Below, piece after piece: positions 1-29,476 of a stretch of DNA of 64,000 bases. The DNA is from an uncultured Lachnospiraceae bacterium (GTDB lineage: Bacteria > Bacillota > Clostridia > Lachnospirales > Lachnospiraceae). Location of the stretch: assembly GCA_949878435.1 (NCBI GenBank), contig CATLAK010000016.1, forward strand, positions 16,342-80,341. Reading direction: 5' to 3'. The notes beneath the pieces are model-generated. The model did no database searches, was not told where the DNA came from, and saw nothing but the letters and a program-made list of their open reading frames with translations. Positions within the stretch are counted from its first letter, which is position 1. Each line of letters begins with the position of its first letter. The translations under genes and the position numbers were made by a program.

Positions 1-3000
1 AGGCATTGTATTTGTTGATGGATGTGTGGGAAGAGGATGACGGATATCAGTACATAAGGTTTTACCCCGGTGATGGAACGGAATCCAAATGGAAGTTTGA
101 GATAAAGCCAGATGGAAAGGGATCAGGCAAGCGGACAGATTCTCATATCCCATGCAGCGGAAGTACTGGAAATACTAATGATGTACAGAATTTTGAAAAT
201 CAAATTGTCAGCGCAAGTATGCCTTTTGTCAGCGGAGAAGATTATTTGCAGGTTCCGCTTTCTATCAAGACCTTAAATATAGGTTTTGACGCCAGCGGCT
301 CTCTTGATGATGACTGGCGCTATGAGAATGTCAGAATATGCAGAAAGCCTCTGGACAATCAGGAGCCTAAGCTCATAGGTGTTGCAGATATGGCTTCCGG
401 TACCTATAAGCCGGGCGATACCGTTACAATTGCCCTGATCTTTAATGAAATTGTGGACAAGACGAATAGCGGAACGGGGCTTAACAGCGTACAGGCATCC
501 ACTACATGGGGCAATTTCAAATATGCCGGAGGAGCGGACACCAATGTGCTGTATTTTACAGGGACAGTACCGGAAAATGCCACCGGGACTTTAGCTGTAA
601 ACAGCATCACCAATGCGGCAAATATCAAGGACATGTGCAACATTAACGGAACAGGGACGAGCGGCAGCGGGAGCACGGCGGTTAGTGTGGATACGAAAAA
701 GCCCTCTGTTGCCATCTCCAATACTTCATTGGCAAGCGGAACAGCAAAAGCAGCCATTACAGGAACCAATGTAGATAAGCTTGAATATGCCTGGGCGCAG
801 AGTGATGTAATGCCTGTAAGCGGATGGCTGACGGCTTCTAATGGTCAGCAGGTTACCACCAGGCAGACTTCCGGAGTATGGTATCTGCATGTGCGGGGAA
901 CTTATCATACCACAGGCGCCATGGCTCATACGAGCACATCCTTCAACTTTGGCAGCGGCGGCGCGGGAGTCTTGCCGGACCTTACACTTTCGGCGGATAA
1001 CAGCAGCTGGGCGCAGAGCAGGGCGATCAGTTTGACACGTACGCCTCAAAATGCAGCCGTGGCAGTGAAGACACCGTCCGGCGTGACCACAACACTAGCA
1101 TCCGGCGCAGCGAGCTATACAGCGACAGAAAACGGCAATTATACGTTCACATTGACTTCGGGCGGAGAAACGGTAGTGAAGAGTATTTTTGTCAGCAAAG
1201 TCGACAGAATAAGACCCGATGTTATATTGAGCGGTCCCCAGTCGAAAACGCAGAATGAAAATGTGATGTTGAATATCATTCCTTCCGATGAAGGCGGCGC
1301 CGGGATAAAGACGGTGACAGGTACATGGACGGTGACACGGGGAGGCGTATCTCAAAGCAGCGTCAATGCAGTTTTGACGAGACAAAGCGACGGTACCTAT
1401 ACGGCAAAGACACCTGGGCAGAATGGGTATGATTACACATATATACTTAATGTAGTGGTGACGGACAATGCCGGAAATACTACGACAAAGCGTTCTGATA
1501 CCTACACGGTGCTGCTGAAAGCGCCTACCATTACGGTGCAAAAATTATCTAGCAGTGAGAAGGGGGACGTTTATTCTTATACAGTCAATGCCAACGGGAA
1601 TACGATAAGAGAGATACAGCTGCCGGACGGTACGGTGGTAAATGCATTGAGCGGCAGATTTACGCTTACGTCTCCCGGAACTTACTATGTAACCGTAAGC
1701 GATGAAGCTGGTCATCTGGTGAGAAGCAGCGCTATGACGGTAGCGGAAAATGTGGACGGCGACGCGCCGGAAGTACGTTTGTTCCAGGCAGTGGAGAACT
1801 GGACGAATCAAACGGTGGAAATAAATATAAGTATTTATGAAGTGGGCGGCATCGCCTCCGCTGTGTGGGTAAATGAAGCCGGCGAGTCAGGCAATGTGGC
1901 ATATCAGAGGGAAACGTCTTCCGCTTATGAAGGAAGTTTTCCGGTGAACAAGAACGGCAAAATTACCGTAACGGTAACTGATACAAAGGGCAATGTGGGG
2001 ACAGCGTCCATAACGGTATCGAATATCGATAAGACCGAGCCCTTGGCAGAAATGAATCTTGAAGGGGCACCCAATGCTGCTACAGGATGGTATTTGACCA
2101 GCATTCCGGTGACCATCTCCTTTAGGGATGATACAAACCAGGAAGAGGGCGGCAGTCCCAGCGGTATTAAGTCGGTACAGTATGGCTGGACCGGGAGCAA
2201 AGATATCGTTCCGTCAACGCTCAAAGAATTGACGCAAAACGAGGTTGCTGCAGGCAGCAAGCGTATCACTGTAACGGAAAACGGCATTGGATATATTTAC
2301 TGTAAAGTGGTGGATAACGCAGGAAATGAAAGGGAAGTATTTTCTCAGGAGATCAAGAAGGATGCTACCGTGCGGAGCCTTACGATTACAGGACCGGAGC
2401 AGGGCGTTCCTGCGCAGGATGGATTGACCTTGCATGTCAAGTCTGCATCCTTTGGTCCCTCCGGCGGTTATATTACCGTGAGGAAGAGTACAGAATCATC
2501 AGAAACCACACTTTTAGACAATCCTGGGAGCGGAAGTCTGGAGACAGATTATAAGATTACAAGTGACGGGGTATATTATATCAGCTGCTATACCTATGCA
2601 AATGATCAGCCTGCCGTTTATACCAAATATATCCGTAAGGTGACGTTTAACAGCCAGGGCGGAAGCAGTGTGGATTCCCAGTTTGTATGGACCAGATTGG
2701 GAAGCGATTCCACAAGCACGCAGGTCCAGTGCAAAGTTGCAAGACCCGCAGATCCGGTTTTGACCGGTCATACCTTTAGGGGATGGTATACAGATAAAGA
2801 ATGCACGGAGGCTTTTGATTTTAATAAACAGGTGAAAGCGAACACCACGCTTTACGCGAAATGGACGGCAGACACTTATCAAATATCTTATCATCTGGAT
2901 GGATATACGCCGGAGGCAGAATATCGAAGCTATACCTATGGAAAGGGTTTGACGCTGCCGGAGCTTACAAGGGATGGCTATGTCTTTGACGGATGGTATA

Positions 3001-6000
3001 AGGACAGTGGATATAGCGGAGATAAGCAGACAGCGATCGGCAAGACACAGACAGGAAATCAGGTATTTTATGCCCGCTGGAAAGATGTAGGTGCGCCATC
3101 CATTGAAGCTGTTTTGTCTGACGGTGCAGATGAAAGCAGCTGGTACCGGGCGGAAAATAAACCGACGATAGAATTGCAATATTCTGACAATGAAGGGGTT
3201 TCCCAGCTTCTGGTCTCAGTGGACGGAAAGGACTTTGAGGTCCTGCATGGGCTTACTACGGGAAGCGCCACGCAAAATGTGACGAAAGGGTCTTACAGCA
3301 CTCTTTTGGAGGGAGAACATACCTATACCTTTAAGGCAATGGATGAAGCAGGAAACGGGAGCACCAGCAGCACCCTTACGGTTAAGCTGGACACCATAAA
3401 GCCGGTAGTAGGAGTAATTACCTATGATGAAAAGGCGGTCCATTTCCTTGACTGGATTATTGGAAAGGAAAGTCTGGTCATTTCGATTCCGGTAACAGAA
3501 GAGGGAAGTGGAACAAAGGAAATTACCTGTCAAGTCACGCCGAAAGGCGGGCAGCCGGAAAATAGAACCGTGCAGCTTAGCGGATCTGCGCCCGCGCAGA
3601 AAGCGGAACTTATTTTTGACGCCGACTGGCAGGGAACCATAACGAATATTACATGTGTGGATGCAGCAGATAATCAGGCAGACAGCAAGAGCGTTGGAAG
3701 TGAAAACGGCGGTATCATTGTAGAAAATAAAGCGCCGCAGATCCGTATCTGTGAAGCAGATATGACAGACCCTCTCCATCCGCAGGCGGGAGATGTATTG
3801 TCCGATGATTACTATGAGGAAGGGGATATGCCAATCCTTTATGCGGAAGTGACAGATGATGCTTTTTTGGGCGTAACAGCGGGCATCAAAAAAATCAATT
3901 ATGCAATAAACGGCGTGCCCTGTGCCGTGCAGGGAGAATTCGACAAAGCATTACAGGGAGAGTATAGCTTTACCATATCCCTGCAGGGACATGCAGGAGT
4001 TGTAGGGGTAACTGTGACCGCAGAAGATCATGCAGGAAATATTGGACGGGAAACCGTGATGGTAAAGGTGAAAGGACAGGAGAGAAAGCCGGAGGCAGTC
4101 ATCGATTATCCAAAGGACAAGCTCACCAATCTGGTGCCTGGATGGACTTATGAAGTGAAGGTCAAGGATGGCGGGACAAAGATCTGTGTGGCGGATGAAG
4201 CGGGAGAGATTGCATTTGAAGATGAGTGGATGGGTCATACGATTCTGCTGGTCAAAAAGGGAGACGGTCAGCATACCCAGGACAGCGATGCCCAGGAACT
4301 TGCCATACAGTCCCGCCCGGATGCCTTAAATCCTAATACCGATATCAAGGTGACGCCCGAGGTAGTAAAGGGCGCCGAGGATGCTGAAATCAAGATCACG
4401 ATTGCCGTAGACCATGGCGATATGGAATACAGCACAGACGGAGGGATAACCTGGACGCCTGTGCCGGAGGATAATATTATTTCCGATTTAGGACCCGGTG
4501 ATGTGCTCATCAGAGACAAGGCAGCAGAAGATAAGCCTCACGGTGAGGAGACCTGCGTAACGATTTCCAGCAGCGATGTAACGATTACGGCAGTTTTTGA
4601 CTTAAATGATAAAGGCGTGGCAGACAGACCTGTGCCCCAGACAGGCAGGCAATATTCCGATTTATTGACGAAGCCTTTAGATCCTGTCAGAGACGGTTAT
4701 GTGTTTGAAGGCTGGTATACGGAGGCAGCATGTCAGAATCAGTGGAATTTTGAGACAGATGTGGTAGGAAAGATAATCGACAAGGGCGATTATAAGGTAG
4801 ATGAAAGCAGCAGGAATGTCACCGTCACTCTTTATGCAAAATGGCGGGATATAAAACCGCCTGTACTCAGTGCAGCATTAGCAGACCAAAAGGATCCCGA
4901 CAAGTGGCATCAGGAATTGTCGATGGTTTTGACATATTATGATAACGTGGGTGTGTCGGAACTTTATGTAAAAGTGGATGACGAAGAGGAAACGCAGATA
5001 ACGGGACTTACGACGGGAGATGCAACTACCGCCGAGACAACGGGAAGATATGAACTGACATTAGAGGGAAGCCATGTCTACCTCTTTAAGGCAAAGGATG
5101 CGGCAGGCAATGTGACCTATACAAAAGCAATTACCGGAAAAGTCGATAAGACAAAGCCGGCGCTTGGGGAACTGTCCTACAACGAAGGGTATACCAATAT
5201 CTGGAATTGGATCATACAAAAAGAAAGCCTGATTATTTCGATTCCGATTACGGAAACGGGAAGCGGTGTGAAACAGGTGGATTATATTCTGACGCCGGAG
5301 GGCAAGACTGCCCAGACAAAGCAGGCAAAACTGATTACAGGACCGGGTGGAAACGGTGTGACGGCACAAATCGCAGTGGATGCGGATTTTAAGGGTAAAA
5401 TCACAGATATTGTGGCAATGGATTATGCGGGAAATGTTTCCGACTCAAAAGACGTCAATGCAGGAGGCAACGGCGTTTTGGTGGAGACGAATAAGCCGGT
5501 GATCACAATTTTAGCAGACTGTTATCCTACAGATAAGACGGCGGCAACCCAGCTCCAGGGTGTAGCGCTTTCTGATGCGTATTATGAAACGGCGCCGAAC
5601 CTGATTGTAAAGGTGCAGGATGACAACGGCTCCTTATCTTCAGGGCTGAAATCCGTTTCATGGAAAGTGAATAACGGAGGCGAACAGCAGGAAGAAGGGC
5701 AATTCGATGCCGCAATGAAAACAGAATATCAATTTACCATGGGCAACCTGGGCGGTCGTACAGGCGCGGTATCGGTAACCATATATGCCAAGGATCAGGC
5801 GGGGAATACAATAGAAAATATGGTGATCATCCGAATCAAAGGGCAGGAGGAAACGCCCGAGATTACCGTGGATTATCTTGATAACAAGCTGATCGGACTG
5901 ATACCCGGAGACACTTATATGATCAACGATGGAGCTGCCGGATTAACGCCTTATGAAGCGGATTCGGAAGGAAAGCTCATCCTTCAGGATACTTGGGCTG

Positions 6001-8093
6001 GAAAAGAACTTCTGATTATCAAGAAGGGAGACGGCGTCAATACGTCAGACAGTGAGGCACAGATCCTTCAGATTGCCGCCCGTCCCAAGGCGCCGGATCT
6101 TGCGCCTGACGGAAAAAAGGATGAAACCATTAAAGGAAAGAAGGACGGATCCCTGACACTTGCCACTGACGGGACGGAATACAGCACAGATGGAGGCAGG
6201 ACATGGAATAAGACAGAAGATAACCAAATCAGAAATCTTTCAGCCGGAGAAGTCAGAATCCGTGTTGCAGCTTCTGAAACCAGTCCTTGGGGAGAGGAAT
6301 GCATTATAACCATAGCAGGGGGAAAATCAATTTTTGTCGCTTTTGCTTCAAGGGGAGGCAGTGCGGTTCCTTCTGTAACAGGAAAGGCATATCATGATAC
6401 AGTTGCAAGACCGGCAGATCCTGTGAAGGACGGCTATGTATTCGGCGGCTGGTATAAAGAAACGGATTATCAAAATAAATGGAAGTTTGAAACAGAGCAG
6501 GGAGCAGATAAACTGGAGGATGACACCGTTCTTTATGCAAAATGGATATCCAAAGAGACGGCGCCTCGTCCGGGAATTGACACGAACAAAGAAGTGCTGA
6601 CGAATCTTACACCGGGCGCATCCTATCTGATACAGGGGAAACTTGTGACTGCCACTTCAGAGGGTACGATTCCGATTCTGAGTGAATATTTCGGAAAGGA
6701 AATCGAAGTGATAAAAGCCGGCGACGGAAGCAGCTCTGCAGACAGCGATCCTTATGCATTTTTGATTCCACAGCGTCCTTCGGCGCCTGCAGACATCATT
6801 TCAGTAGATGAAAGTGGGAAAGGTGCAAAAGACGGAAAGCTGACAGGTGTTGATGGTGCAATGGAATACCGGAAAGCTGGAAACGAGGAATGGATTCGTA
6901 TTGACACAGATACATTGACGGGGTTAGAGCCGGGTGATTATGAAGTGCGTTATGCGCCGGCAGATGGTTCCTTTGCCTCTCCAAGTGTGATTAAGACGAT
7001 TAAGGCGTACAGTGAGGAAGAAAAGCCGGAAGTTCCGGAGCCGCCTAAGGAAGAAAATAAGCCTGACAGCGGAGAACGCCCCGGAAATCAGGGCAGTACA
7101 AGTACCGGCGGGGGTGATTCTTCAGAATCCGACGCTTTGCCTGTTGCAAGTATAAAGCCGCAGACGGACAAGGAATCCGATATGCCGGAGGTTTTGCCGG
7201 GCAATCGCCTGACAGAAGACGACAGAAAAGAAGAAAGCAGAACCGGAACCGACAGAAGAGCGGATGTAGAGGATGCAAAGGAAATTGACGCAAAATCAGA
7301 AACCAGTCTTACAAAAGAGGACAGTATGGAATACAGCGGGGATGACCAGGCAGCAGGAGAAGCAAGTCAGGTGATTCCTTATGAGGAGGCGGCAGGAAAA
7401 CCGGTTACCGAATCGATTCAGGTGGCTTATGGAGAGGGAACCATCCATATCATGGTGGAATCCTTAGATGAAAATAAGCAAACCACAGGAAATGTGATTA
7501 CAGGCGTCATTTTGACCAGTTTTGAGAATGTGCTGGATGCTGCGCTCACAGAAGAGGAGAAGCAAAGAGCAGATGCAGGTGAGGATGTGATTGTGCGCCT
7601 GGTGGTAACAAAACTGGAAACACAGGTTCCCGAGAAGGACAGAAAAGAAATGGAAAATGCAATCAATCTTCTTGGCAGGGAATATGATGGCATCATGATG
7701 GGCGCTTACATCGATATTTCTGTGGAGAAAAAGATAGGTGCGAGCGAATGGCTAAGGTTGAAGGAGTTGAATGAAGAGCTTGAGATTGCTCTTGATATTC
7801 CTAAAGAGATCTTAAACGAACAAGCCGTTTACTGGGTAATGAGAAACCATGAAGGAATCTGTGAACTTTTAGAAGACCTTGACAAGGAAAATGAGACGAT
7901 TACGATTCGCACGAAATTGTTCTCTACGTATGCCATTCTTTATACTTTAGAGGAGCAAAGTGAGGCAGCCGGATATATGTGGTATTGGCTGATCCTGCTG
8001 ATTTTGCTGGCATGCGCAGCCGGGGGAATCTTCTTTATCATTTTGAAACGCCAAAAGGATGAGGAGGAGGACGGGGATCTTAAGAAGTCATAA
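1..8093 (+). CDS. Giant Ig-like/InlB-repeat surface protein, 5' end outside window
   Basis: The reading frame is open to the left edge, so the N-terminus and any signal peptide lie outside the window; the TTG start in the ORF track is only the first start-like codon. About 2695 residues are visible. They hold many bacterial Ig-like segments with recurring DKTKP/AGN motifs. InlB B-type repeats follow (GHTFRGWYTD...LYAKW, GYVFDGWYKD, GYVFEGWYTE, GYVFGGWYKE). A large unit of about 590 residues is repeated (compare SWYRAENKPTIELQYSDN with KWHQELSMVLTYYDN). A charged E/K/D-rich linker leads to one C-terminal membrane helix (WYWLILLILLACAAGGIFFIIL) and a short acidic cytoplasmic tail. There is no LPxTG motif, so anchoring is probably by the helix. 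The likely role is surface adhesion or matrix binding, inferred from the repeat family only. Confidence 0.8.
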   Translation, partial: ALYLLMDVWEEDDGYQYIRFYPGDGTESKWKFEIKPDGKGSGKRTDSHIPCSGSTGNTNDVQNFENQIVSASMPFVSGEDYLQVPLSIKTLNIGFDASGSLDDDWRYENVRICRKPLDNQEPKLIGVADMASGTYKPGDTVTIALIFNEIVDKTNSGTGLNSVQASTTWGNFKYAGGADTNVLYFTGTVPENATGTLAVNSITNAANIKDMCNINGTGTSGSGSTAVSVDTKKPSVAISNTSLASGTAKAAITGTNVDKLEYAWAQSDVMPVSGWLTASNGQQVTTRQTSGVWYLHVRGTYHTTGAMAHTSTSFNFGSGGAGVLPDLTLSADNSSWAQSRAISLTRTPQNAAVAVKTPSGVTTTLASGAASYTATENGNYTFTLTSGGETVVKSIFVSKVDRIRPDVILSGPQSKTQNENVMLNIIPSDEGGAGIKTVTGTWTVTRGGVSQSSVNAVLTRQSDGTYTAKTPGQNGYDYTYILNVVVTDNAGNTTTKRSDTYTVLLKAPTITVQKLSSSEKGDVYSYTVNANGNTIREIQLPDGTVVNALSGRFTLTSPGTYYVTVSDEAGHLVRSSAMTVAENVDGDAPEVRLFQAVENWTNQTVEINISIYEVGGIASAVWVNEAGESGNVAYQRETSSAYEGSFPVNKNGKITVTVTDTKGNVGTASITVSNIDKTEPLAEMNLEGAPNAATGWYLTSIPVTISFRDDTNQEEGGSPSGIKSVQYGWTGSKDIVPSTLKELTQNEVAAGSKRITVTENGIGYIYCKVVDNAGNEREVFSQEIKKDATVRSLTITGPEQGVPAQDGLTLHVKSASFGPSGGYITVRKSTESSETTLLDNPGSGSLETDYKITSDGVYYISCYTYANDQPAVYTKYIRKVTFNSQGGSSVDSQFVWTRLGSDSTSTQVQCKVARPADPVLTGHTFRGWYTDKECTEAFDFNKQVKANTTLYAKWTADTYQISYHLDGYTPEAEYRSYTYGKGLTLPELTRDGYVFDGWYKDSGYSGDKQTAIGKTQTGNQVFYARWKDVGAPSIEAVLSDGADESSWYRAENKPTIELQYSDNEGVSQLLVSVDGKDFEVLHGLTTGSATQNVTKGSYSTLLEGEHTYTFKAMDEAGNGSTSSTLTVKLDTIKPVVGVITYDEKAVHFLDWIIGKESLVISIPVTEEGSGTKEITCQVTPKGGQPENRTVQLSGSAPAQKAELIFDADWQGTITNITCVDAADNQADSKSVGSENGGIIVENKAPQIRICEADMTDPLHPQAGDVLSDDYYEEGDMPILYAEVTDDAFLGVTAGIKKINYAINGVPCAVQGEFDKALQGEYSFTISLQGHAGVVGVTVTAEDHAGNIGRETVMVKVKGQERKPEAVIDYPKDKLTNLVPGWTYEVKVKDGGTKICVADEAGEIAFEDEWMGHTILLVKKGDGQHTQDSDAQELAIQSRPDALNPNTDIKVTPEVVKGAEDAEIKITIAVDHGDMEYSTDGGITWTPVPEDNIISDLGPGDVLIRDKAAEDKPHGEETCVTISSSDVTITAVFDLNDKGVADRPVPQTGRQYSDLLTKPLDPVRDGYVFEGWYTEAACQNQWNFETDVVGKIIDKGDYKVDESSRNVTVTLYAKWRDIKPPVLSAALADQKDPDKWHQELSMVLTYYDNVGVSELYVKVDDEEETQITGLTTGDATTAETTGRYELTLEGSHVYLFKAKDAAGNVTYTKAITGKVDKTKPALGELSYNEGYTNIWNWIIQKESLIISIPITETGSGVKQVDYILTPEGKTAQTKQAKLITGPGGNGVTAQIAVDADFKGKITDIVAMDYAGNVSDSKDVNAGGNGVLVETNKPVITILADCYPTDKTAATQLQGVALSDAYYETAPNLIVKVQDDNGSLSSGLKSVSWKVNNGGEQQEEGQFDAAMKTEYQFTMGNLGGRTGAVSVTIYAKDQAGNTIENMVIIRIKGQEETPEITVDYLDNKLIGLIPGDTYMINDGAAGLTPYEADSEGKLILQDTWAGKELLIIKKGDGVNTSDSEAQILQIAARPKAPDLAPDGKKDETIKGKKDGSLTLATDGTEYSTDGGRTWNKTEDNQIRNLSAGEVRIRVAASETSPWGEECIITIAGGKSIFVAFASRGGSAVPSVTGKAYHDTVARPADPVKDGYVFGGWYKETDYQNKWKFETEQGADKLEDDTVLYAKWISKETAPRPGIDTNKEVLTNLTPGASYLIQGKLVTATSEGTIPILSEYFGKEIEVIKAGDGSSSADSDPYAFLIPQRPSAPADIISVDESGKGAKDGKLTGVDGAMEYRKAGNEEWIRIDTDTLTGLEPGDYEVRYAPADGSFASPSVIKTIKAYSEEEKPEVPEPPKEENKPDSGERPGNQGSTSTGGGDSSESDALPVASIKPQTDKESDMPEVLPGNRLTEDDRKEESRTGTDRRADVEDAKEIDAKSETSLTKEDSMEYSGDDQAAGEASQVIPYEEAAGKPVTESIQVAYGEGTIHIMVESLDENKQTTGNVITGVILTSFENVLDAALTEEEKQRADAGEDVIVRLVVTKLETQVPEKDRKEMENAINLLGREYDGIMMGAYIDISVEKKIGASEWLRLKELNEELEIALDIPKEILNEQAVYWVMRNHEGICELLEDLDKENETITIRTKLFSTYAILYTLEEQSEAAGYMWYWLILLILLACAAGGIFFIILKRQKDEEEDGDLKKS

Positions 8094-8834
8094 GCCCTCG
8101 TTCCTTTCCGCCAGCCCCGCATGAATTTGTGCAAATGTATAATCAAGCCATGCCTGCTCAATCTGAGCATATTCCCGGACGCGGACCGGAAGGGATATGT
8201 CTCCGGTGAGCAGGCATATTTTATTTTCAAATTTCATAACGTGATCCATGTTTACAAGGATGCCCTTATTGATGAGCAGAAAACGGCTATCAGAGATTAG
8301 CGGCTTGATAAATTCGGAAAAAGAAGAATAAGGGGAAAGAGTGGTCCCGTAGCTGTCGGTGATGTCGGTATTGTGCCCGTTTGCCACCACACAGACAATA
8401 TCGGAATATAAAAGCCGGATGGTCTGCCGGCTGCAGCTGAACTTAAAGACCCGGGAGGTCTGGGGAAGAAACTGCAGTGCATCGTTTAAAACATGAAAAA
8501 CGCGTTCTTCAGTCGCAGGCTTCTGGATATATTCAAAGGCATGGCAGGAAAATGCTTCATGTAAAAACTCATTGCTGGAGGTAAGAAAAATAATTATACA
8601 GCTTTGATCTGTTTCGCGGATGCTTAATGCTGTTTCGATGCCGTTTTTATCTGCCATAAAAATATCCATAAAGATAATAGAATATTTATATTTTTCAAAA
8701 TTTTCAAGAAAAGAGCTGCCGCTATTGAAGCAGTCGATGGATAAAGGCAGCTTATTCTGCTTTTCAAAACTGCGGAGCAGATCTACTAGATGCCGGGTAT
8801 CTGTTTCGTTATCTTCAACTAAAGCAATGTTCAT
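8088..8834 (-). CDS. LytTR-family response regulator (orphan)
   Basis: The 248-residue protein has a receiver domain (NIALVEDNE start, IIFMDIFM around the phosphoacceptor Asp, QKPA late motif) followed by a LytTR DNA-binding domain (about residues 140-240, including FLLINKGILVNMDHV). I chose the start at 8834 over the track's 8936 because it begins MNIALVEDN and follows a GAGGAG ribosome site. No histidine kinase is adjacent. It ends 6 bp inside the stop region of the convergent surface-protein gene. On the other side it diverges from the NRPS operon across about 280 bp holding two direct repeats, which makes it a candidate regulator of that operon. That regulatory link is inferred. Confidence 0.88.
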   Translation of the reverse strand: MNIALVEDNETDTRHLVDLLRSFEKQNKLPLSIDCFNSGSSFLENFEKYKYSIIFMDIFMADKNGIETALSIRETDQSCIIIFLTSSNEFLHEAFSCHAFEYIQKPATEERVFHVLNDALQFLPQTSRVFKFSCSRQTIRLLYSDIVCVVANGHNTDITDSYGTTLSPYSSFSEFIKPLISDSRFLLINKGILVNMDHVMKFENKICLLTGDISLPVRVREYAQIEQAWLDYTFAQIHAGLAERNEGL

Positions 8835-9073: not shown

Positions 9074-9117
9074 TAATAAATATGTTCTTTTTTAAGGCGA
9101 ATTGTGGGGAGGAAATA

Positions 9118-10890
9118 ATGCATCAGAGAAATGAACGTTTAATTAACGCGAAAATCAATCAATACCTTGTTCCAGGAATCATGATGGCGTTGTCGCTGCA
9201 GCTGGGAAATATCTTAGATACGATCATGGTGGGTAATTTCCTGGGGACCGATGCCATGACGGCGGTTGCTTTAAGCATTCCGGTGGAGACGATCATTCAG
9301 ATGCCGGGCTATTGTCTGGGAACAGGAGGCGCGCTTGCGGCGGGAGTAATGCTGGGAAGAAGAGAGCGGGAAAAAGCGTCCGGGGTATTTACCCTTACCT
9401 TTTTTACCGTATTGATTTCCAGCGTTCTATTCAGCGTGCTTGCCTTTTTCGTGACAGACCCCCTGGCGCAGATGCTGGCGGCAAAGGCGGGTGTGGCAGA
9501 GCTTACGGGAGATTATATCTTTGTAAGTATGCTTGGCGCCCCCTTTATTGGAATCGGTCTTCTGATGGTCAGCTATCTGGGGGCTGAAAATCATCCCGAA
9601 TTGTCTTCTGCTTATCTGATTATATCGAATGTTATCAATTTGTTTCTTGATTTTATCTTTTTAAAATATACGCCGCTTGGAACCAAGGGGGCGGCTTTAT
9701 CCACTATCTTGGGATATGCAGTGGGAATGGTGGTATTTCTCAAATATATCCATTCGCCAAAAAGGATGATCGGCTTTGTGAAGGCGCCGCCTTTTGCCCT
9801 GATGAAGGAGGCGGTGGTCATGGGTGCTCCGGTTTTTGTGTTTATGGCGATGAGCTTTGTAAAGGCGCTGGGGCTTAATACGATCATCGTAAGCCTGACG
9901 GGGCAGGATGGGATGGCAATCTATACGGTCTGCGACAATATCCTGATGATCGTGGAGATGCTCTCCGGCGGCATTATCGGCATCATTCCCAATATGGCGG
10001 GCATCTTGTACGGCGAAAAAGATTATTACGGTATCCGGGTGCTGTGCAAAAGAACCCTTCAGTACAGTTTTATCGTAGTCTTTGCCGCGGTGGTCTTTAT
10101 CATGATTTTTACGGTTCAGGTGACGAAGCTGTTTGGAATCACTGAGCCTGTGCTGCAGGGAGAGATGGTGGCGGCGCTGCGGATCTACATTTTTTCCCTG
10201 CCTTTTTATCTCTGGAATAAATTTTTGATCAGTTACTATGAATCCATCGAGGAGACGGCGCAGGCAAGTGTGATTACCTTTTTGCAGAACTGCCTTTACA
10301 TTCTCCCGGCGGCGCTTTTGGGTATCCTGCTGGGGCAGGCGCTTGGGGGAACCGGCGTGAACGGGCTTGCCCTTGCCTTTATCTGCGCGGAGGTTCTGAC
10401 TGCGGTATCTGCATATGTTTACCGGAAGATGAAATATAAAAAGTCTGACTTTTATATTCTTCCGGCGGAGAATGACGGCGTGAATTTGGACTTTTCCGTC
10501 GCCGCAAGCCTTGACGAGGCGGTGAAGGTTCCCAAAGAGATCATGGCGTTCTGCGAGGAGAACGGGGTCCTGCCTAATACGGCAAATTTAGCGGCAATGG
10601 CATCCGAGGAAATGACGGTCAACATCATCAAGTACGGCGGAAAGAGCGCCCAGTGGATTGATGTCAACTTATCCATCGAAGAGGAGGAAATGCGGCTCCG
10701 AATAAGGGATAACGGGAAACCTTTTAACCCTGCGGAGTATGCCTTTGACGGAGACGGGTATGAGATACACGGCATCGAACTTGTAAAGCGTATTTCGTCA
10801 AAAATAGATTATATGCGGACAATGGATATGAACAATACAGTAATTGCGTTTGCAAGACAGGAGGAAAAGAATGGAAGCAAAGAAGTATGA
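9118..10890 (+). CDS. MATE exporter fused to a C-terminal RsbW-like HATPase domain (MATE1)
   Basis: The 590-residue protein starts at ATG 9118 behind GGGGAGGAA rather than at the upstream TTG. Residues 1 to about 445 form a twelve-helix MATE-type transporter (NILDTIMVGNFLG, paired bundles). From about residue 460 there is a cytoplasmic HATPase_c domain of the anti-sigma/serine-kinase kind. Its N-box is ASEEMTVNIIKYGG with Asn502, its G1 box is RIRDNGKPFNP and its G2-like segment is HGIELVKR, so all ATP-binding elements are present. The last 20 bp overlap the NRPS start, implying translational coupling. It likely exports the peptide product, with transport gated by nucleotide state or by binding the downstream STAS protein (inference). 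Confidence 0.88.
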   Translation: MHQRNERLINAKINQYLVPGIMMALSLQLGNILDTIMVGNFLGTDAMTAVALSIPVETIIQMPGYCLGTGGALAAGVMLGRREREKASGVFTLTFFTVLISSVLFSVLAFFVTDPLAQMLAAKAGVAELTGDYIFVSMLGAPFIGIGLLMVSYLGAENHPELSSAYLIISNVINLFLDFIFLKYTPLGTKGAALSTILGYAVGMVVFLKYIHSPKRMIGFVKAPPFALMKEAVVMGAPVFVFMAMSFVKALGLNTIIVSLTGQDGMAIYTVCDNILMIVEMLSGGIIGIIPNMAGILYGEKDYYGIRVLCKRTLQYSFIVVFAAVVFIMIFTVQVTKLFGITEPVLQGEMVAALRIYIFSLPFYLWNKFLISYYESIEETAQASVITFLQNCLYILPAALLGILLGQALGGTGVNGLALAFICAEVLTAVSAYVYRKMKYKKSDFYILPAENDGVNLDFSVAASLDEAVKVPKEIMAFCEENGVLPNTANLAAMASEEMTVNIIKYGGKSAQWIDVNLSIEEEEMRLRIRDNGKPFNPAEYAFDGDGYEIHGIELVKRISSKIDYMRTMDMNNTVIAFARQEEKNGSKEV

Positions 10891-22935: not shown

Positions 22936-23583
22936 ATGGTACACGTATATGCAGCGGATATTGCAAATCTGCCGGACCCGAAAGGGGAGCCGCACATACT
23001 TGATACATTGACAGATGAGCGGATAGACAGAATCCAAAAATACTTAAAAGCGGAAGACCGCAAAAGGAGCCTTGGGGCGGGGCTTATGCTTAACAAAGTC
23101 CTGCCCCTTCACGGGGCTTTGCCCGGGAAGGTCTGCGTGGGTGCGGATGGGAAGCCTAGGGCGGAGGGGGTCTTTTTCAACCTATCCCATTCGGGAAATC
23201 TGGTCATCTGTGCGGCGGCGGAAACGGAAGTGGGATGTGATGTGGAAAAGATTGTGAGAGCGCCCGAAGGGGTGGCGGAGCGGTTCTTTCATAAGGACGA
23301 GGCGGCATATATCAAAGAAGGCACGGGACAGGAGCGGGATGAGCGGTTCTTTCGGATCTGGACGATGAAAGAGAGTTATATCAAGATGACCGGAGAGGGG
23401 ATGCGCCTATCCTTCGACAGATTTATATTTTTGATAGGGCAGGAAGGAGTGAAAGTGTGCCGGGATGGAAGAATCCTTTCCTGCCGCATTATGGAATATG
23501 ATATTCCCGGATACAAGGTTTCTGTGTGCGCCGGGGAGGAAAATTTTGCGGAATCCGTAGAATATTTTGACCTGGGCGCATAA
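22936..23583 (+). CDS. Sfp-type 4'-phosphopantetheinyl transferase
   Basis: The 215-residue protein carries the Sfp-family signatures in order: FFNLSHSGNLVICA, VGCDVEKI with the Mg-binding GxD, and FRIWTMKESYIKMTGEG matching WxxKE. It should transfer phosphopantetheine from CoA to the four carrier-domain serines of the upstream NRPS. The start is uncertain: ATG 22936 after GGGGGCGGG, or the upstream TTG at 22909 (224 residues). It sits about 60 bp behind the NRPS stop. In that gap a 12-bp segment carrying the NRPS stop codon is duplicated (TTCGAGTAAAGA then TTCGAGTAAGAG). Confidence 0.93.
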   Translation: MVHVYAADIANLPDPKGEPHILDTLTDERIDRIQKYLKAEDRKRSLGAGLMLNKVLPLHGALPGKVCVGADGKPRAEGVFFNLSHSGNLVICAAAETEVGCDVEKIVRAPEGVAERFFHKDEAAYIKEGTGQERDERFFRIWTMKESYIKMTGEGMRLSFDRFIFLIGQEGVKVCRDGRILSCRIMEYDIPGYKVSVCAGEENFAESVEYFDLGA

Positions 23584-23629: not shown

Positions 23630-23929
23630 ATGACAATTACAAAAAACGTAGAAAAGGAAGTGCTCACACTTGCGCTGGAGGGAAGGCTTGACACGAATAC
23701 GGCGCCGGAACTTGAAAACAAAATTGCGGAGGAGCTGACGGCTGACATACAGACTTTGATTCTGGATTTAAAAGAACTGGAATATATTTCATCCGCCGGT
23801 CTGCGTGTTCTTCTGTCAGCACAGAAAAAGATGAACAAGCAGGGCAGCATGGTCGTTAAAAATGCAAATGAAATGATCATGGATGTATTTCAAGTGACTG
23901 GGTTTGTGGATATTCTGACCATTGAGTAG
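23630..23929 (+). CDS. STAS-domain anti-anti-sigma-like protein
   Basis: The 99-residue single-domain protein belongs to the SpoIIAA/RsbV family. Its phosphorylation loop reads LEYISSAGLRVLLSAQ, with Ser54/Ser55 at the position where these proteins are phosphorylated by a HATPase serine kinase and dephosphorylated by a PP2C enzyme. ATG 23630 follows AGGAGG, so the longer track start is rejected. Kinase-like and phosphatase partners are in the same operon. No sigma factor is encoded in the window, so its binding target is probably one of the HATPase domains, two of which are fused to transporters. Confidence 0.92.
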   Translation: MTITKNVEKEVLTLALEGRLDTNTAPELENKIAEELTADIQTLILDLKELEYISSAGLRVLLSAQKKMNKQGSMVVKNANEMIMDVFQVTGFVDILTIE

Positions 23930-23932
23930 ACA

Positions 23933-25666
23933 ATGAGACGAAAAGAAGAAGATTATTTCAGTTCAAAAATGTTCCTTGGGCAGTTCTTTCCAGCTTTGAT
24001 CTCAGCGGCGGCGCTTGCCCTTGGGGATATGGCGGATGCTATCGTGATCGGCAACCGCATGGGCGTGACGGGACTGGCGGCAATCAGCCTGACGCTTCCG
24101 GTTTTTATGGTCATCAATCTGATCATGCATGGACTTGGCGCAGGCGGTGCGGTCCGGTTTTCGAGACAGCTTGCACAGGGGCAGGAGAAGGAAGCGCGCA
24201 GGGGATTTCAGGGAATCATGACGGCAGCTTTCCTTTTGGGCGTAATCCTCGCCTTACTTGGGAATCTGCTTATGGAACAACTCCTGGCAATTTTAGGGGC
24301 AGGCTCCTCTGAAGCGGAAGTTTATGCGGCGTGCCGCAGTTATGTGAAATTGATCGTCACGTTTATTCCTTTGTTCTTTGTCACTTATATTTTGAATTAT
24401 TACCTGCGCAATGATGACAAAGAAAAACTTGCCAGTTTTGGTTTTACGGCAGGGAATCTTACGGACATTGCGCTTAATATCGTGTTCGTCCTTTTTCTTC
24501 ACCAGGGAGTCGTGGGGGCGGCGTGGGCAACCATTATCGGTCTTATGGTCTCGCTGTGCATCTATCTTGCAGGAATGGTGAAAAAGAAGGGCGTGCTGTG
24601 TCTTTTTCCATGGAAACCGGATTTTCATGGAAGCTTAAAATGTTATCAAACGGGATTTTCCACTTCTTCCCAATATCTGCTTACGATGCTCTTTCTGCTG
24701 CTGGCAAACCGCACCTTGATGAAAATGGGCGGGAGTCTGATGGTGGGCGTGTTTGATATGATACAGAATGTGTCCTATTTTATTCTCTATTTATATGAAG
24801 GAACCGGGAAGGCAATGCAGCCGTTGGTGAGTACTTATTATGGGGAGAGGAACCGGAAAGAGTGCAGGAGAGTCTTGTACAAGAGCCTGCGCTTTGGGAC
24901 GGCGGCAGGAATCATGGTGGGGCTTTTATTGTTTATCTTTGCAGGGCAGGTCTGCGGCATTTTCGGTATTCATGACGAATCAAGTCTTAAAGTTGCCGTT
25001 TATGCACTGCAGGTCTATGTAAGCGGTACCCTTGCCGCAGGAATCAGTATTCTTCTGGAAACCTATTATCAATCTGCAGGCAGGGAAAAAAGTGCTTTTG
25101 TGCTTGTCCTTCTCAGGGGCACATTGGTTCTTTTGCCTTTGCTCTTTTTATTTTCCAAAATGGGAACTTATGGCTTCTGGTGGCTGTTTCCGGCGACGGA
25201 GGTATTGTCATTGATTTTGCTGTATCTCTGGCAGCGGCTGTGCCGTGAAAGGGAGACGGTTTTTGATGAAGAAAAGATTTACTACAGGATCATCAGAAAC
25301 AGCAGCGAGGATTTGACGCCGCTGCTTTCAGAGATTGGTATCTTCTGTGAAAAATGGGGAAGTACGGCGCAGCAACAATATTTCATGAATATGGCGGTGG
25401 AAGAACTGTGCGTGGCGATTATGAAACATGGGTTTAAGGACGAGCGCGGGTATATTCAGGTGACGTTGCTTTTAAAGGAAGATGGACTGTTTGAGCTCCA
25501 TATCCGTGATAATGCCGTTTCTTTCAATCCTTTTGCGCAAGAGGAGAAGGAGACGGAAGATCCCTTCGACTTCGACGTCCTTGGAATCAACGTCATTAAA
25601 AAGAAAGGAAAAGAATTTTATTACCGGCGGTATCAGGGATTTAATACGCTGGTGGTAAAAATTTAA
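23933..25666 (+). CDS. Second MATE exporter fused to a degenerate HATPase domain (MATE2)
   Basis: This 577-residue protein starts 3 bp after the STAS stop with no clear ribosome site, suggesting coupled translation. Residues 1 to about 440 form a MATE transporter (DMADAIVIGNRMGVTG, GVVGAAWATIIG). From about 455 there is a HATPase_c domain like MATE1. Its key ATP motifs are altered: the N-box reads MAVEELCVAIMKHG, with Ala495 where MATE1 has Asn, and the G1 box reads RDNAVSF in place of DNGKPF. It may bind partners without phosphorylating them. Alternatives are a heterodimer with MATE1 or a separate substrate. Identification of both domains is firm; the pseudokinase idea is inference from these substitutions. 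Confidence 0.88.
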   Translation: MRRKEEDYFSSKMFLGQFFPALISAAALALGDMADAIVIGNRMGVTGLAAISLTLPVFMVINLIMHGLGAGGAVRFSRQLAQGQEKEARRGFQGIMTAAFLLGVILALLGNLLMEQLLAILGAGSSEAEVYAACRSYVKLIVTFIPLFFVTYILNYYLRNDDKEKLASFGFTAGNLTDIALNIVFVLFLHQGVVGAAWATIIGLMVSLCIYLAGMVKKKGVLCLFPWKPDFHGSLKCYQTGFSTSSQYLLTMLFLLLANRTLMKMGGSLMVGVFDMIQNVSYFILYLYEGTGKAMQPLVSTYYGERNRKECRRVLYKSLRFGTAAGIMVGLLLFIFAGQVCGIFGIHDESSLKVAVYALQVYVSGTLAAGISILLETYYQSAGREKSAFVLVLLRGTLVLLPLLFLFSKMGTYGFWWLFPATEVLSLILLYLWQRLCRERETVFDEEKIYYRIIRNSSEDLTPLLSEIGIFCEKWGSTAQQQYFMNMAVEELCVAIMKHGFKDERGYIQVTLLLKEDGLFELHIRDNAVSFNPFAQEEKETEDPFDFDVLGINVIKKKGKEFYYRRYQGFNTLVVKI

Positions 25667-25676
25667 AGGTATCCAT

Positions 25677-27365
25677 ATGAAGAAGGTCCGATGTTCCCTA
25701 AGCAGGAAAGTAGCCATGATGATTCTGCTGTTTGCTTTTTTGCTGGCAGCGGCAGCCGCTTTTGTGAGTTATTATATTTTTTCAAATACGGTAGATAATT
25801 ATTATAGTCAGGTGACCATGAGTGTGGCAAAAACAGCGGCGGCTGTGGTGGACAAGGATCTGACGGCGTATTATACAGAAGCTTTTAAGGAAATCTATCT
25901 TGCAGATCCGGCGCCGGAATGGGAGAGCGAGGAAGAGCATGCCGCTTATTTAGCGGAGTATGACGCTTTAAAGGGAGAAGATTATCAGCGGCTTTTTGAC
26001 ACATTAAATAGGGTCAAGGAGGCAAATTCCGTATTATCGCTCTATATTGTCTATATGGACCAGCAGTCAAAGACCTGCGTTTATATTGTGGATGCAGATA
26101 CATCAAAATGGGCGTGCCCTGCCGGCACATGGGATATCGTGTACGAGCAGAATTATGAGGCGCTGGCGCACCCGGAAGGCGGATTCCCTGCCTATATCAC
26201 GGACACCGATGCGTTTGGCTGGCTCTGTTCCGCCGGTGCGCCGATTTTTGATGAGGGGGGAAATGTGATTGCCCATGCCATGGTAGATATTTCCATGGAA
26301 GCGGTGATGAAGGAGAGATATGCCTATCTTTTAAAACTGGTGGTACTGCTGGCTGTGCTCACCGTAATCCTGACCCTTTTTGTCATCTACTGGATGAACA
26401 GGGCGGTGGTGAGACCCATCGACATGCTTACTTTTTCGGCATCCCAGTACGTGCAGAAAAAAGCGGAAGGATCAAAGGAAGGAGAAATCCTTGTATTTGA
26501 CAAACTTAAGATACGGACGGGGGATGAAATAGAGAATCTTTTCGATGCGTTTCACCAGATGGAAGAGGATATCAATCAATACATTGAAGATATCACTTTT
26601 GTGACGGCGGAAAAAGAACGCATCGGCGCAGAACTGAACGTTGCCACCCAGATTCAGGCGGATATGCTGCCCCGGATCTTTCCGCCCTTCCCTGACAGAA
26701 AAGAATTCGATATCTTTGCCTCTATGCACCCGGCGAAGGAAGTGGGGGGAGACTTCTATGATTTCTTTCTGGTAGACGAGGACCATCTGGCACTGGTGAT
26801 CGCTGACGTGTCCGGTAAGGGCGTTCCTGCGGCACTGTTCATGGTTATAACAAAGACGCTGATCAAGAACCAGATGATGATGGGAACCTCGCCTAAGGCT
26901 GCTTTGGAGGCGGTCAACAATCAGCTGTGTGAAAACAATGAGGCGGAAATGTTCGTTACCGTGTGGCTGGGCGTATATGAAATTTCCACAGGCAAAGTGA
27001 GGGCGGCGAATGCCGGGCACGAATATCCTGCAATCAGGCGAAAGGGAGGCAGCTTTGAATTATTTAAGGAGCCTCATGGATTCGTACTGGCAGGGATGGA
27101 AAATGCCCGTTACAGGGAATATGAATTTGAACTGCATGCCGGGGATACACTATTTGTCTATACAGACGGCGTGCCGGAGGCGACGGATGCGGTTCAGACC
27201 TTGTTTGGCACAGGGCGTATGATGGAGGCGTTAAACAAAGCGCCGGATGCAAATCCTAAGAATCTGATCGAAGGGGTCAAGAACGACATCGACCGGTTTG
27301 TAGGAGAAGCAATGCAGTTTGACGATATCACCATGCTGGCGGTGCAGGTTTTGGATCAAGAATGA
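25677..27365 (+). CDS. Membrane-bound SpoIIE-family PP2C phosphatase with extracellular sensor
   Basis: The 562-residue protein has an N-terminal helix (VAMMILLFAFLLAAAAAFVSYYIF) and an extracellular region of about 170 residues resembling a Cache sensor. A second helix (LLKLVVLLAVLTVILTLFVIYWM) and a HAMP-like segment lead to a C-terminal PP2C phosphatase. Metal-binding motifs are intact: VGGDFYDFF, IADVSGKGVPAALFM, YTDGVPEATD and FDDITMLAV. By family it should dephosphorylate the phosphoserine of the STAS protein two genes upstream in response to an external signal. It lies 10 bp after MATE2. Confidence 0.92.
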   Translation: MKKVRCSLSRKVAMMILLFAFLLAAAAAFVSYYIFSNTVDNYYSQVTMSVAKTAAAVVDKDLTAYYTEAFKEIYLADPAPEWESEEEHAAYLAEYDALKGEDYQRLFDTLNRVKEANSVLSLYIVYMDQQSKTCVYIVDADTSKWACPAGTWDIVYEQNYEALAHPEGGFPAYITDTDAFGWLCSAGAPIFDEGGNVIAHAMVDISMEAVMKERYAYLLKLVVLLAVLTVILTLFVIYWMNRAVVRPIDMLTFSASQYVQKKAEGSKEGEILVFDKLKIRTGDEIENLFDAFHQMEEDINQYIEDITFVTAEKERIGAELNVATQIQADMLPRIFPPFPDRKEFDIFASMHPAKEVGGDFYDFFLVDEDHLALVIADVSGKGVPAALFMVITKTLIKNQMMMGTSPKAALEAVNNQLCENNEAEMFVTVWLGVYEISTGKVRAANAGHEYPAIRRKGGSFELFKEPHGFVLAGMENARYREYEFELHAGDTLFVYTDGVPEATDAVQTLFGTGRMMEALNKAPDANPKNLIEGVKNDIDRFVGEAMQFDDITMLAVQVLDQE

Positions 27366-27380: not shown

Positions 27381-27788
27381 ATGAAAGAATTGAAATTACG
27401 GGCAGAGGCAAAGGAGCTTGAAAAGGTGCAGGCGTTTGTCCGCGGAGAGATGGAAGCTGCAAATTGCCCTCTTAAGGCGGTATCCCAAGTGGAAATCGCG
27501 GTGGAGGAAATTTATGTCAATATTGCTCATTATGCTTATCCTTCCAGTGATGGAGAGGTGACAATCCGCTGTGCGGTCAGCAGGGAAGAGGGGAAGGTCC
27601 TCATTCAGTTTCTGGATAAAGGGATCCCTTTTGATCCTCTTGCAAAGGAAGACGCAGACACATCGCTGCCTGCGAGGGAGCGTCCCATAGGGGGGTTAGG
27701 CATCCTGATGGTAAAGAAGATGATGGATGAAGTGACTTATCGCTGCGAAGACGGAAAAAATATACTTTCTATGGTCAAGAATTTGTGA
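27381..27788 (+). CDS. RsbW/SpoIIAB-like HATPase serine kinase
   Basis: The 135-residue stand-alone HATPase_c protein has an intact N-box (VEIAVEEIYVNIAHYAY, Asn47), G1 box (FLDKGIPFDPL) and glycine-rich G2 box (RPIGGLGILMVKK). It is of normal length for an anti-sigma serine kinase. With the STAS protein as substrate and the PP2C enzyme as antagonist, it completes a partner-switching set. No sigma factor gene accompanies it, which is unusual for RsbW-type proteins. It starts 15 bp after the phosphatase stop. Confidence 0.9.
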   Translation: MKELKLRAEAKELEKVQAFVRGEMEAANCPLKAVSQVEIAVEEIYVNIAHYAYPSSDGEVTIRCAVSREEGKVLIQFLDKGIPFDPLAKEDADTSLPARERPIGGLGILMVKKMMDEVTYRCEDGKNILSMVKNL

Positions 27789-27809
27789 CGCTTCGGAATG
27801 GAGGAAAAG

Positions 27810-28604
27810 ATGAAAAAGAGGATTGTGTATATTGGGATTGATCTTTTTTATCCGGCGCTTCTGGAATTGTCCAGGTTGTGTGAGGTGGGGCAGATTGTAA
27901 CATGCAGTACCGATAATGTGACGGAGTTCAACGTAAAAGTCTGTAGTTTTGCGTCGGAGCATAAGATCCCTTTAAAGATTGGGAAGATAAAAGAGAAGGA
28001 TTTGGATGATTGGAAAAAAGCAGGGTTTGACCTGGCTGTCTGCGGGGGATATTATCACCGCATTCCGGTAAGGAGCGGGGAGGAGTTTCCCATGGTCAAT
28101 ATCCATCCGTCCCTTCTGCCAAAGGGGCGGGGGGCATGGCCTATGCCCATAGCCATTTTAAAAGGCGAGACCAAAAGCGGCATCACCGTACATAAAGTTG
28201 CAAAGGGATTTGACGAAGGAGATATTTTACTGCAAAAGGAGGTTCCGGTATACGGAACAGACAATCTGGAAACACTTACTTTGCGGCTGCATCAGACGCT
28301 GCCGGAACTCATGGAACGTCTGGTACGGGATTTTGACCGGCTCTGGAATAAGGCGAAGGTGCAGGGGGAGGGAGAATACCTGAAGATGCCAGAAGAAAAG
28401 GACTATACAATCACTGACAGGATGAATTGTAAGGAAGCGGATCTGATTCTGCGCGCCTTTTGGGGATATGAATGTATTTATACAAATGGGCATGAAAAAG
28501 TTGAATTGATTTGTGGACAGATTCGCCGGGAAGGAACCTCCGGCATTTTTACTTTTCCGCTTAAAGACGGCGAAATTATAGCAGACAAGGTAAGAAAATT
28601 ATGA
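27810..28604 (+). CDS. Formyltransferase (Fmt-like) possibly acting on the peptide
   Basis: The 264-residue protein matches the formyltransferase fold. It contains VNIHPSLLPKGRGAWPM with the catalytic Asn and His and the SLLP loop, then GFDEGDIL with the catalytic Asp. It is shorter than a typical housekeeping methionyl-tRNA formyltransferase of about 315 residues. ATG 27810 is placed correctly behind GGAGG, so the track's start 12 bp upstream is less likely. Its position in the NRPS operon suggests it formylates an amine: the N-terminus of the peptide or its first aminoacyl unit, as formylation domains do in linear gramicidin synthesis. A sugar-amine substrate cannot be excluded. Confidence 0.8.
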   Translation: MKKRIVYIGIDLFYPALLELSRLCEVGQIVTCSTDNVTEFNVKVCSFASEHKIPLKIGKIKEKDLDDWKKAGFDLAVCGGYYHRIPVRSGEEFPMVNIHPSLLPKGRGAWPMPIAILKGETKSGITVHKVAKGFDEGDILLQKEVPVYGTDNLETLTLRLHQTLPELMERLVRDFDRLWNKAKVQGEGEYLKMPEEKDYTITDRMNCKEADLILRAFWGYECIYTNGHEKVELICGQIRREGTSGIFTFPLKDGEIIADKVRKL

Positions 28605-29476
28605 TACAGTTAAAGGAACCTGAGCTTACCATGAAACGCCAGGTGGACAAAATAAGAAAAGAATACGGGCACAAGGCGGCATCCCATGCATTTGCCTCTC
28701 TTTATATCTGGAAGAAGGAAATGGGGCTGCAAATTCATATGGATGAGCAGGCTTTCACGGTAAAATTCGGACTGCGGGGAGAACATGCCTGGTTTTTTCC
28801 GTGCGGAGAGACGAAGGCAGTTAAGCGTTTGGTAAAAGAGGTTCTTGCAGAAGATGAGGAAGCTGTGTTCTACTATATGAGGGAGCAGGACCGGGATCTC
28901 TTAGAGCAGGATTTCCCGGGGCAATTTTCAATCCGGGAATGTGAGAATGACACGGAATATCTGTATGACAGACGGCAGCAGCAGGAGCTTAAAGGAAAGA
29001 AATTTTCTGGTCAGCGGAATCATATCAACCGCATAAAGATCGATTACAGGCTGGACGCAAAGAAGCTGGATGCATATGTTTTGCGGGATGTATTGGAGGT
29101 GAACCGGTTTTGGGAAAGGCGTTCTAAAGAAGAAGCCGGACTTAAGGATGAACAGGCGGGACATCTTCTGCTTACCAATAGCGGACAATTGGATGTAACA
29201 GGTGTTCTGGTGAGGGTGGATGATGAACCTTTTGCCATCGCGGCAGGATATCCTTTGAGCGAAGATACGTTTGACCTTGCACTGGTAAAGCAGGTAAAGT
29301 GTCTGACAGGTTTATCTGTTTACACCAGAAATCAGCTGATCCAGTTATTGCCGCAGCAGTATAGGTGGCTCAATGCAGAAGAGGATTTAGGGGTGGAGGG
29401 GCTGCGTACCATGAAAAGGCAGATGCGTCCCGCAGATTATGTAAAGATGTATCAGGGATTTTTGAATAAAAATTAG
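28601..29476 (+). CDS. DUF2156 / phosphatidylglycerol lysyltransferase C-domain-like protein
   Basis: The 291-residue protein starts inside the formyltransferase stop (ATGA overlap), so the two are co-translated. It resembles the soluble GNAT-like DUF2156/LPG_synthase_C family (KGKKFSGQRNHINRIK, NAEEDLGVEGLRTMKRQMRP). There is no membrane flippase half and no signal peptide. In MprF-type enzymes this fold transfers an aminoacyl group from tRNA to a lipid. Here, next to a formyltransferase and an NRPS, it could acylate or aminoacylate the peptide or lipid. The function is open; the family call is moderate to good. Confidence 0.75.
   Translation: MIQLKEPELTMKRQVDKIRKEYGHKAASHAFASLYIWKKEMGLQIHMDEQAFTVKFGLRGEHAWFFPCGETKAVKRLVKEVLAEDEEAVFYYMREQDRDLLEQDFPGQFSIRECENDTEYLYDRRQQQELKGKKFSGQRNHINRIKIDYRLDAKKLDAYVLRDVLEVNRFWERRSKEEAGLKDEQAGHLLLTNSGQLDVTGVLVRVDDEPFAIAAGYPLSEDTFDLALVKQVKCLTGLSVYTRNQLIQLLPQQYRWLNAEEDLGVEGLRTMKRQMRPADYVKMYQGFLNKN

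Follow-up and report, generated by a model that had tools for sequence, protein, structure and literature searches.

To our knowledge, partner switching is known mostly from sigma factor control, with a few cases in which signalling enzymes are controlled. In the RsbV/RsbW/RsbU system of SigB and the SpoIIAA/SpoIIAB/SpoIIE system of SigF, a STAS protein with a phosphorylatable serine, an RsbW-type kinase and a SpoIIE-type PP2C phosphatase are brought together in one gene run. A non-sigma target is used by the SiaABCD system of Pseudomonas aeruginosa, in which a PP2C phosphatase and a kinase operate with SiaC, a phospho-switched protein that acts on the diguanylate cyclase SiaD (PMC7647112, PMC8457831). 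Several RsbW homologues coexist in M. smegmatis, where SigF is bound by RsbW1, RsfB has RsbW2 as its kinase, and RsbW3 interacts with RsbW1 (PMC7693655). In Vibrio fischeri, the STAS protein SypA is under the serine kinase SypE, with biofilm as the output (PMC10120452, PMC4517449). For a published fusion of a MATE transporter with an anti-sigma domain, a search of the literature available without subscription returned nothing relevant.

Such fusions occur in the window, which is the whole 64,000-nucleotide stretch of DNA analyzed here, from contig C16 of an uncultured Lachnospiraceae bacterium. Two of its genes, MATE1 and MATE2, encode MATE transporters with C-terminal HATPase domains, and the second stands among genes for partner-switching components:

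9082 to 10890, plus strand: MATE1, an Asn-intact MATE-HATPase (Pfam MatE and HATPase_c_2; orthologues L144, L145 and L159 precede NRPS genes)
23630 to 23929, plus strand: STAS protein of the anti-sigma antagonist type with an ISSAGL phosphosite (Pfam STAS; TIGR00377 above cut-off)
23933 to 25666, plus strand: MATE2, a MATE transporter with a C-terminal degenerate HATPase (Pfam MatE and HATPase_c_2; AF2; Foldseek)
25265 to 25663, plus strand: pseudo-HATPase domain of MATE2, residues 445-577 (SpoIIAB structures by profile; column table)
25415 to 25417, plus strand: codon of Ala495 (gcg), at the position of the N-box Asn (Asn absent from 79 of 79 readable relatives)
25508 to 25516, plus strand: Asp526-Asn527-Ala528 (gat aat gcc) of the G1 box, with Gly replaced by Ala (relatives: A 75, S 3, V 1)
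25677 to 27365, plus strand: SpoIIE-type PP2C phosphatase with an N-terminal membrane region (Pfam SpoIIE, 164.6 bits)
27381 to 27788, plus strand: free RsbW-like kinase with intact N, G1 and G2 boxes (PDB RsbW 6m36)
27798 to 28604, plus strand: formyltransferase, a conserved partner gene (Pfam Formyl_trans_N)
28601 to 29476, plus strand: stand-alone LPG_synthase_C protein, a conserved partner (domain match)

The genes from PPTase through LPG_synthase_C all lie on the same strand, and no gap between them exceeds about 50 bases. The STAS reading frame is open from a TTG at 23567, and the ATG at 23630 is its likely start. The last two genes of the run (27798-29476) may hint at an exported compound.

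As in the SigB and SigF systems, a STAS protein with a phosphorylatable Ser, a PP2C phosphatase and an RsbW-like kinase occur together here, and the MATE2 domain profile also matches SpoIIAB structures. The locus differs from those systems in two respects: an exporter carries a fused, degenerate version of the anti-sigma domain, and the contig lacks a sigma factor. No Sigma70_r2 match was found on C16, while the genome, at 86% completeness, holds 16 such matches. Three STAS proteins were found in this genome: that of MATE2, one on contig C19, and one adjoining a third MATE-HATPase on contig C28. The C19 protein adjoins a free HATPase and a sigma factor, which is the SpoIIAA-SpoIIAB-sigma arrangement. 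The third MATE-HATPase (L156, G000:C28:7864-21603; also L003) is Asn-intact, with the STAS gene directly 3' and an APH/choline-kinase-like gene 5', and has neither SpoIIE nor RsbW nearby.

The remaining systems resemble the MATE2 locus in part. The best NCBIfam match of its SpoIIE protein is the SiaABCD PP2C phosphatase, although far below cut-off; unlike the diguanylate cyclase targeted there, the target here would be a transporter with a fused pseudo-HATPase. Labor divided among RsbW homologues is a feature shared with M. smegmatis, where, in contrast, all of the homologues are soluble and sigma-directed, and none is fused to a transporter. SypE also carries a phosphatase domain, in which respect it resembles the SpoIIE-RsbW fusions found at many MATE2-type loci, but the Syp system has no MATE and its output protein bears no pseudo domain. 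MATE2 shares its fold and Pfam MatE match with other MATE/MOP exporters, whose ordinary members lack a C-terminal HATPase.

MATE2 is a MATE transporter of the MOP superfamily, with MatE repeats (101.7 bits, in two stretches) and the 12-TM MOP fold, and is predicted to function in export. Its TIGR00797 score of 152.2 bits exceeds the cut-off of 147.4. The AF2 model (mean pLDDT 86.6) consists of a transmembrane helical bundle followed by an alpha/beta C-terminal domain, and the top solved structures in Foldseek were MATE transporters (6fhz, TMt 0.86). Transporters alone filled the best 50 rows of that whole-model search, and the kinship of the C-terminal domain with SpoIIAB comes instead from a profile search with the domain, which retrieved SpoIIAB structures (E 0.0019-0.0024) and aligned the Asn-less N box of the family against the N box of SpoIIAB. 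With Pfam HATPase_c_2 (cut-off 27.4 bits), MATE1, MATE2 and the free HATPase score 35.8, 35.1 and 87.7 bits, respectively, all above gathering.

In SpoIIAB and other GHKL proteins, the N-box Asn coordinates Mg2+, and the Glu just before it presumably acts as the catalytic base. An RsbW/SpoIIAB kinase is expected to have this Asn together with the G1 Gly, and the MATE2 domain has neither. Its N box, VEELCVAIMKHG, contains Ala495, and its G1 box, RDNAVSF, contains Ala528; the G2-box Gly-Gly (columns 548/549 of the column table) is absent as well. The presumed base is retained as E491. MATE1 keeps both the Asn and the G1 Gly (SEEMTVNIIKYG; RDNGKPF), as does the free HATPase (EEIYVN, with Asn47; LDKGIPF). 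These residues are as described in the earlier note, whose statement that the three domains differ in predicted catalytic state is supported. Two refinements are needed. The Asn that the note called catalytic was correctly located, but it is the metal ligand rather than the base. Similarly, the label of intact HATPase applies to the N and G1 boxes of MATE1 only. The G2 Gly-Gly occurs in free RsbW copies but in none of the MATE-linked HATPases, MATE1 included, so that the MATE1 domain, judged by its motifs, is not fully kinase-like, and the free HATPase alone among the three matches the full kinase consensus.

Loss of the ATP-site residues is a property of the whole MATE2 clade. In an initial seven-member alignment, the Asn position was A, T, A, S, A, A and A, and the G1 Gly was A in six members and N in one. 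Since the labels "degenerate" and "intact" are defined by the motif itself, the unbiased figure is that from a scan, in one genome per species, for a C-terminal motif outside the N box (YRRYxGF). The scan yielded 80 loci, and in the 79 readable ones, which come from genomes other than that of the window, Asn and G1 Gly were both gone without exception. The Asn position is occupied by A (49), V (19), S (4), L (3), T (2) or I (2), and the G1 position by A, S or V as listed above. Both residues are kept in 59 of 59 readable neighboring kinase domains, free or SpoIIE-fused. A second search covered 392 genomes of the order and found strong matches in eight, including the window's own and one already sampled. 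Among the six others were three close members without Asn (T, A and S), the distant L194 with A at this position, L198 with an unrecognizable tail, and the distant L193 (7515-9293), which stands beside SpoIIE and keeps Asn but has Leu in place of the G1 Gly. L193 is a possible intermediate. No close homologue of MATE2 with an intact motif was found among the 79 readable loci, and an isolated mutation or sequencing error in MATE2 is rejected, as the loss is clade-wide.

The degenerate domain is nonetheless well conserved. Pairwise identity averages 43.4% in the pseudo-HATPase vs. 38.3% in the transmembrane part, and the domain has the higher value in 2253 of 2701 pairs. Identity to the nearest relative, L057, in which NRPS and PPTase genes also lie 5' of the MATE2 module, reaches 90% in the pseudo-HATPase, compared with 79% in the transmembrane part and 71% in the free RsbW; dS in this comparison is saturated in the pseudo-HATPase. 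Conservation above that of the transporter part argues against decay, and neutral decay of the domain is rejected. Residues invariant in a 74-row alignment are Glu491, Asp526 and the C-terminal Y564, Y567, G569, F570 and N571, with exceptions for Asp526 in two loci found later (Tyr in L195, Asn in L194). The invariant Glu491 and nearly invariant Asp526 would fit a domain that retains some non-canonical, Mg-independent binding of ATP or a different nucleotide and serves in energy or nucleotide sensing on the exporter. Such a role is improbable, given that the Mg-ligand Asn, the G1 Gly and the G2 Gly-Gly have all been lost and that the G1 Gly has become Ala almost always, not a variety of residues.

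In a tree of HATPase domains, all MATE-linked domains form one clade (support 100), and the free or SpoIIE-fused kinases form the other (100). The MATE2-type domains are monophyletic (98). A second degenerate type, with the motifs ELYG/EING, groups with Asn-intact domains (86-90). The tree of transporter parts has the same split, with support of 99 for the MATE2 type and 96 for the second type, which is nested among Asn-intact members. Rooting on the kinases makes Asn the ancestral state, and the simplest history then has two or more losses, of which the ELYG/EING type apparently represents a second one outside the MATE2 clade.

Neighboring genes were counted if they lay on the same strand and no more than 6 kb away. 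Of 75 MATE2-clade members, 74 have SpoIIE nearby, 53 RsbW, 43 STAS, 45 LPG_synthase_C, 43 formyltransferase, and three an NRPS-type adenylation domain. The STAS phosphosite near degenerate MATEs is Ser in 51 of 52 cases and Thr in the other. In the second degenerate type (seven entries, some of which are overlapping loci of one genome), SpoIIE is present in six, and the seventh is cut by the locus end. Both clades that lost the Asn stand beside SpoIIE and RsbW genes. Two clusters of the second type that were scanned (L177 and L179, ELYG) have a GH3-family amido-synthetase adjacent to the MATE in addition to SpoIIE, RsbW and STAS. Among 31 Asn-intact MATE-HATPases, the counts are 20 for NRPS-type adenylation domains, nine for STAS and five for SpoIIE. 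Of these five, L131, G225, G286 and G057 share a cluster with a degenerate MATE, and G278 lies near a contig start. In the mixed clusters, including that of the window, SpoIIE accompanies the degenerate MATE and not the Asn-intact one. At the level of loci, Asn loss goes together with SpoIIE at a Fisher p of 2e-18, a value that ignores relatedness and overstates the strength; because the Asn state changes just twice on the tree, a tree-aware test cannot reach significance.

Asn-intact MATE-HATPases often adjoin NRPS or adenylating enzymes, usually without STAS, SpoIIE or RsbW, and the three MATE1 orthologues each lie immediately 5' of an NRPS gene with none of the three nearby. For these reasons, MATE1 most likely serves the window's NRPS cluster as its exporter and is separate from MATE2, which belongs to a portable signalling module situated beside that cluster. 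The proposal that MATE1, MATE2 and the free HATPase form one working set (a kinase, a sensor and a docking module) is rejected on gene company: MATE2 orthologues are nearly always with SpoIIE and usually without NRPS. What survives of it is docking as the role of MATE2, which suits a retained domain with clade-wide loss of the ATP site. Nothing marks MATE1 out as a sensor, and the likely signal input is not any of the three domains but the membrane SpoIIE phosphatase.

The completeness of the module varies. RsbW is absent within 6 kb of 22 of the 75 MATE2-clade members (some in Butyrivibrio, some on truncated contigs), and STAS of 32 of the 75. These absences are due in part to contig ends and perhaps in part to action in trans; in one of these genomes, a free HATPase is encoded elsewhere. 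SpoIIE and RsbW are fused in proteins of ~690 aa 3' of the degenerate MATE in L066, L067, L068, L072, L080, L082, L089, L197 and others. Large proteins (974-1245 aa) with no Pfam matches adjoin the module in L058 (4267-7959), L061 (13471-20689) and L064 (4233-7154 and 11747-14689). In L194, a short contig with no SpoIIE nearby, the interval 1654-8101 contains an NRPS-like gene, the gene of a 539 aa protein that matches a STAS profile and, directly following these, a degenerate MATE. A third degenerate group (L161, L164, L182 and L198) has an even more degraded tail and no SpoIIE; in L161 (5992-9475) and L164 (5995-9478), an Asn-intact MATE-HATPase is in tandem with a MATE whose HATPase tail (RDNLNH) is nearly unrecognizable.

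This third group, and the frequent absence of local STAS or RsbW, would be compatible with a domain that merely stabilizes or anchors the transporter, with the signalling genes acting elsewhere in trans. A purely structural remnant is improbable, however, for a domain that is more conserved than the transmembrane part, that has SpoIIE adjacent in nearly every member of its clade, and that lies on a contig without a sigma factor or other obvious target. A different possibility stems from the fact that RsbW and SpoIIAB proteins are dimers: the pseudo-HATPase might pair with the free RsbW encoded in the same gene run and so recruit it to the membrane or modulate it, rather than bind STAS directly. 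RsbW3 of M. smegmatis is thought to inactivate RsbW1 as a heterodimer (PMC7693655). We regard this pairing as doubtful, since the MATE-linked HATPase clade is far from the kinases, many loci keep the domain without a local RsbW, and in many others the kinase is fused to SpoIIE.

Domain anatomy and gene company together make partner switching onto an exporter the likeliest mechanism. On balance, we think it probable that STAS, MATE2, SpoIIE and RsbW constitute a partner-switching circuit that acts on an exporter rather than on a sigma factor, and we infer the docking of STAS, the direction of the switch and the gating of transport. Against this reading weigh the loci without a nearby RsbW or STAS, the limit of two changes in the Asn state, the third degenerate group and L194. 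The membrane SpoIIE phosphatase would act as the input and dephosphorylate STAS upon a signal, and the soluble RsbW-like kinase would phosphorylate STAS at the Ser of ISSAGL. The pseudo anti-sigma domain of MATE2, having lost Mg-ATP chemistry, would present a surface on which STAS docks in one of its two phospho-states, most likely when dephosphorylated, and docking would couple the signal to transport. The kinase work would have been handed over to the separate RsbW protein.

Taken more broadly, and with greater reserve, gut Clostridia may possess a class of exporters gated post-translationally, in which STAS targets a fused pseudo anti-sigma domain, SpoIIE and a separate RsbW control STAS, and the ATP site was lost as the kinase job passed to another protein, apparently in two lineages. 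With an anti-sigma-type domain that is built into an exporter, and whose ATP site has been lost clade-wide, gut bacteria allow a test of whether small-molecule export is controlled directly and after translation. The same domain shows how an anti-sigma-type kinase can turn into a pseudokinase in nature, and its Asn-intact and degenerate relatives can be compared biochemically side by side.
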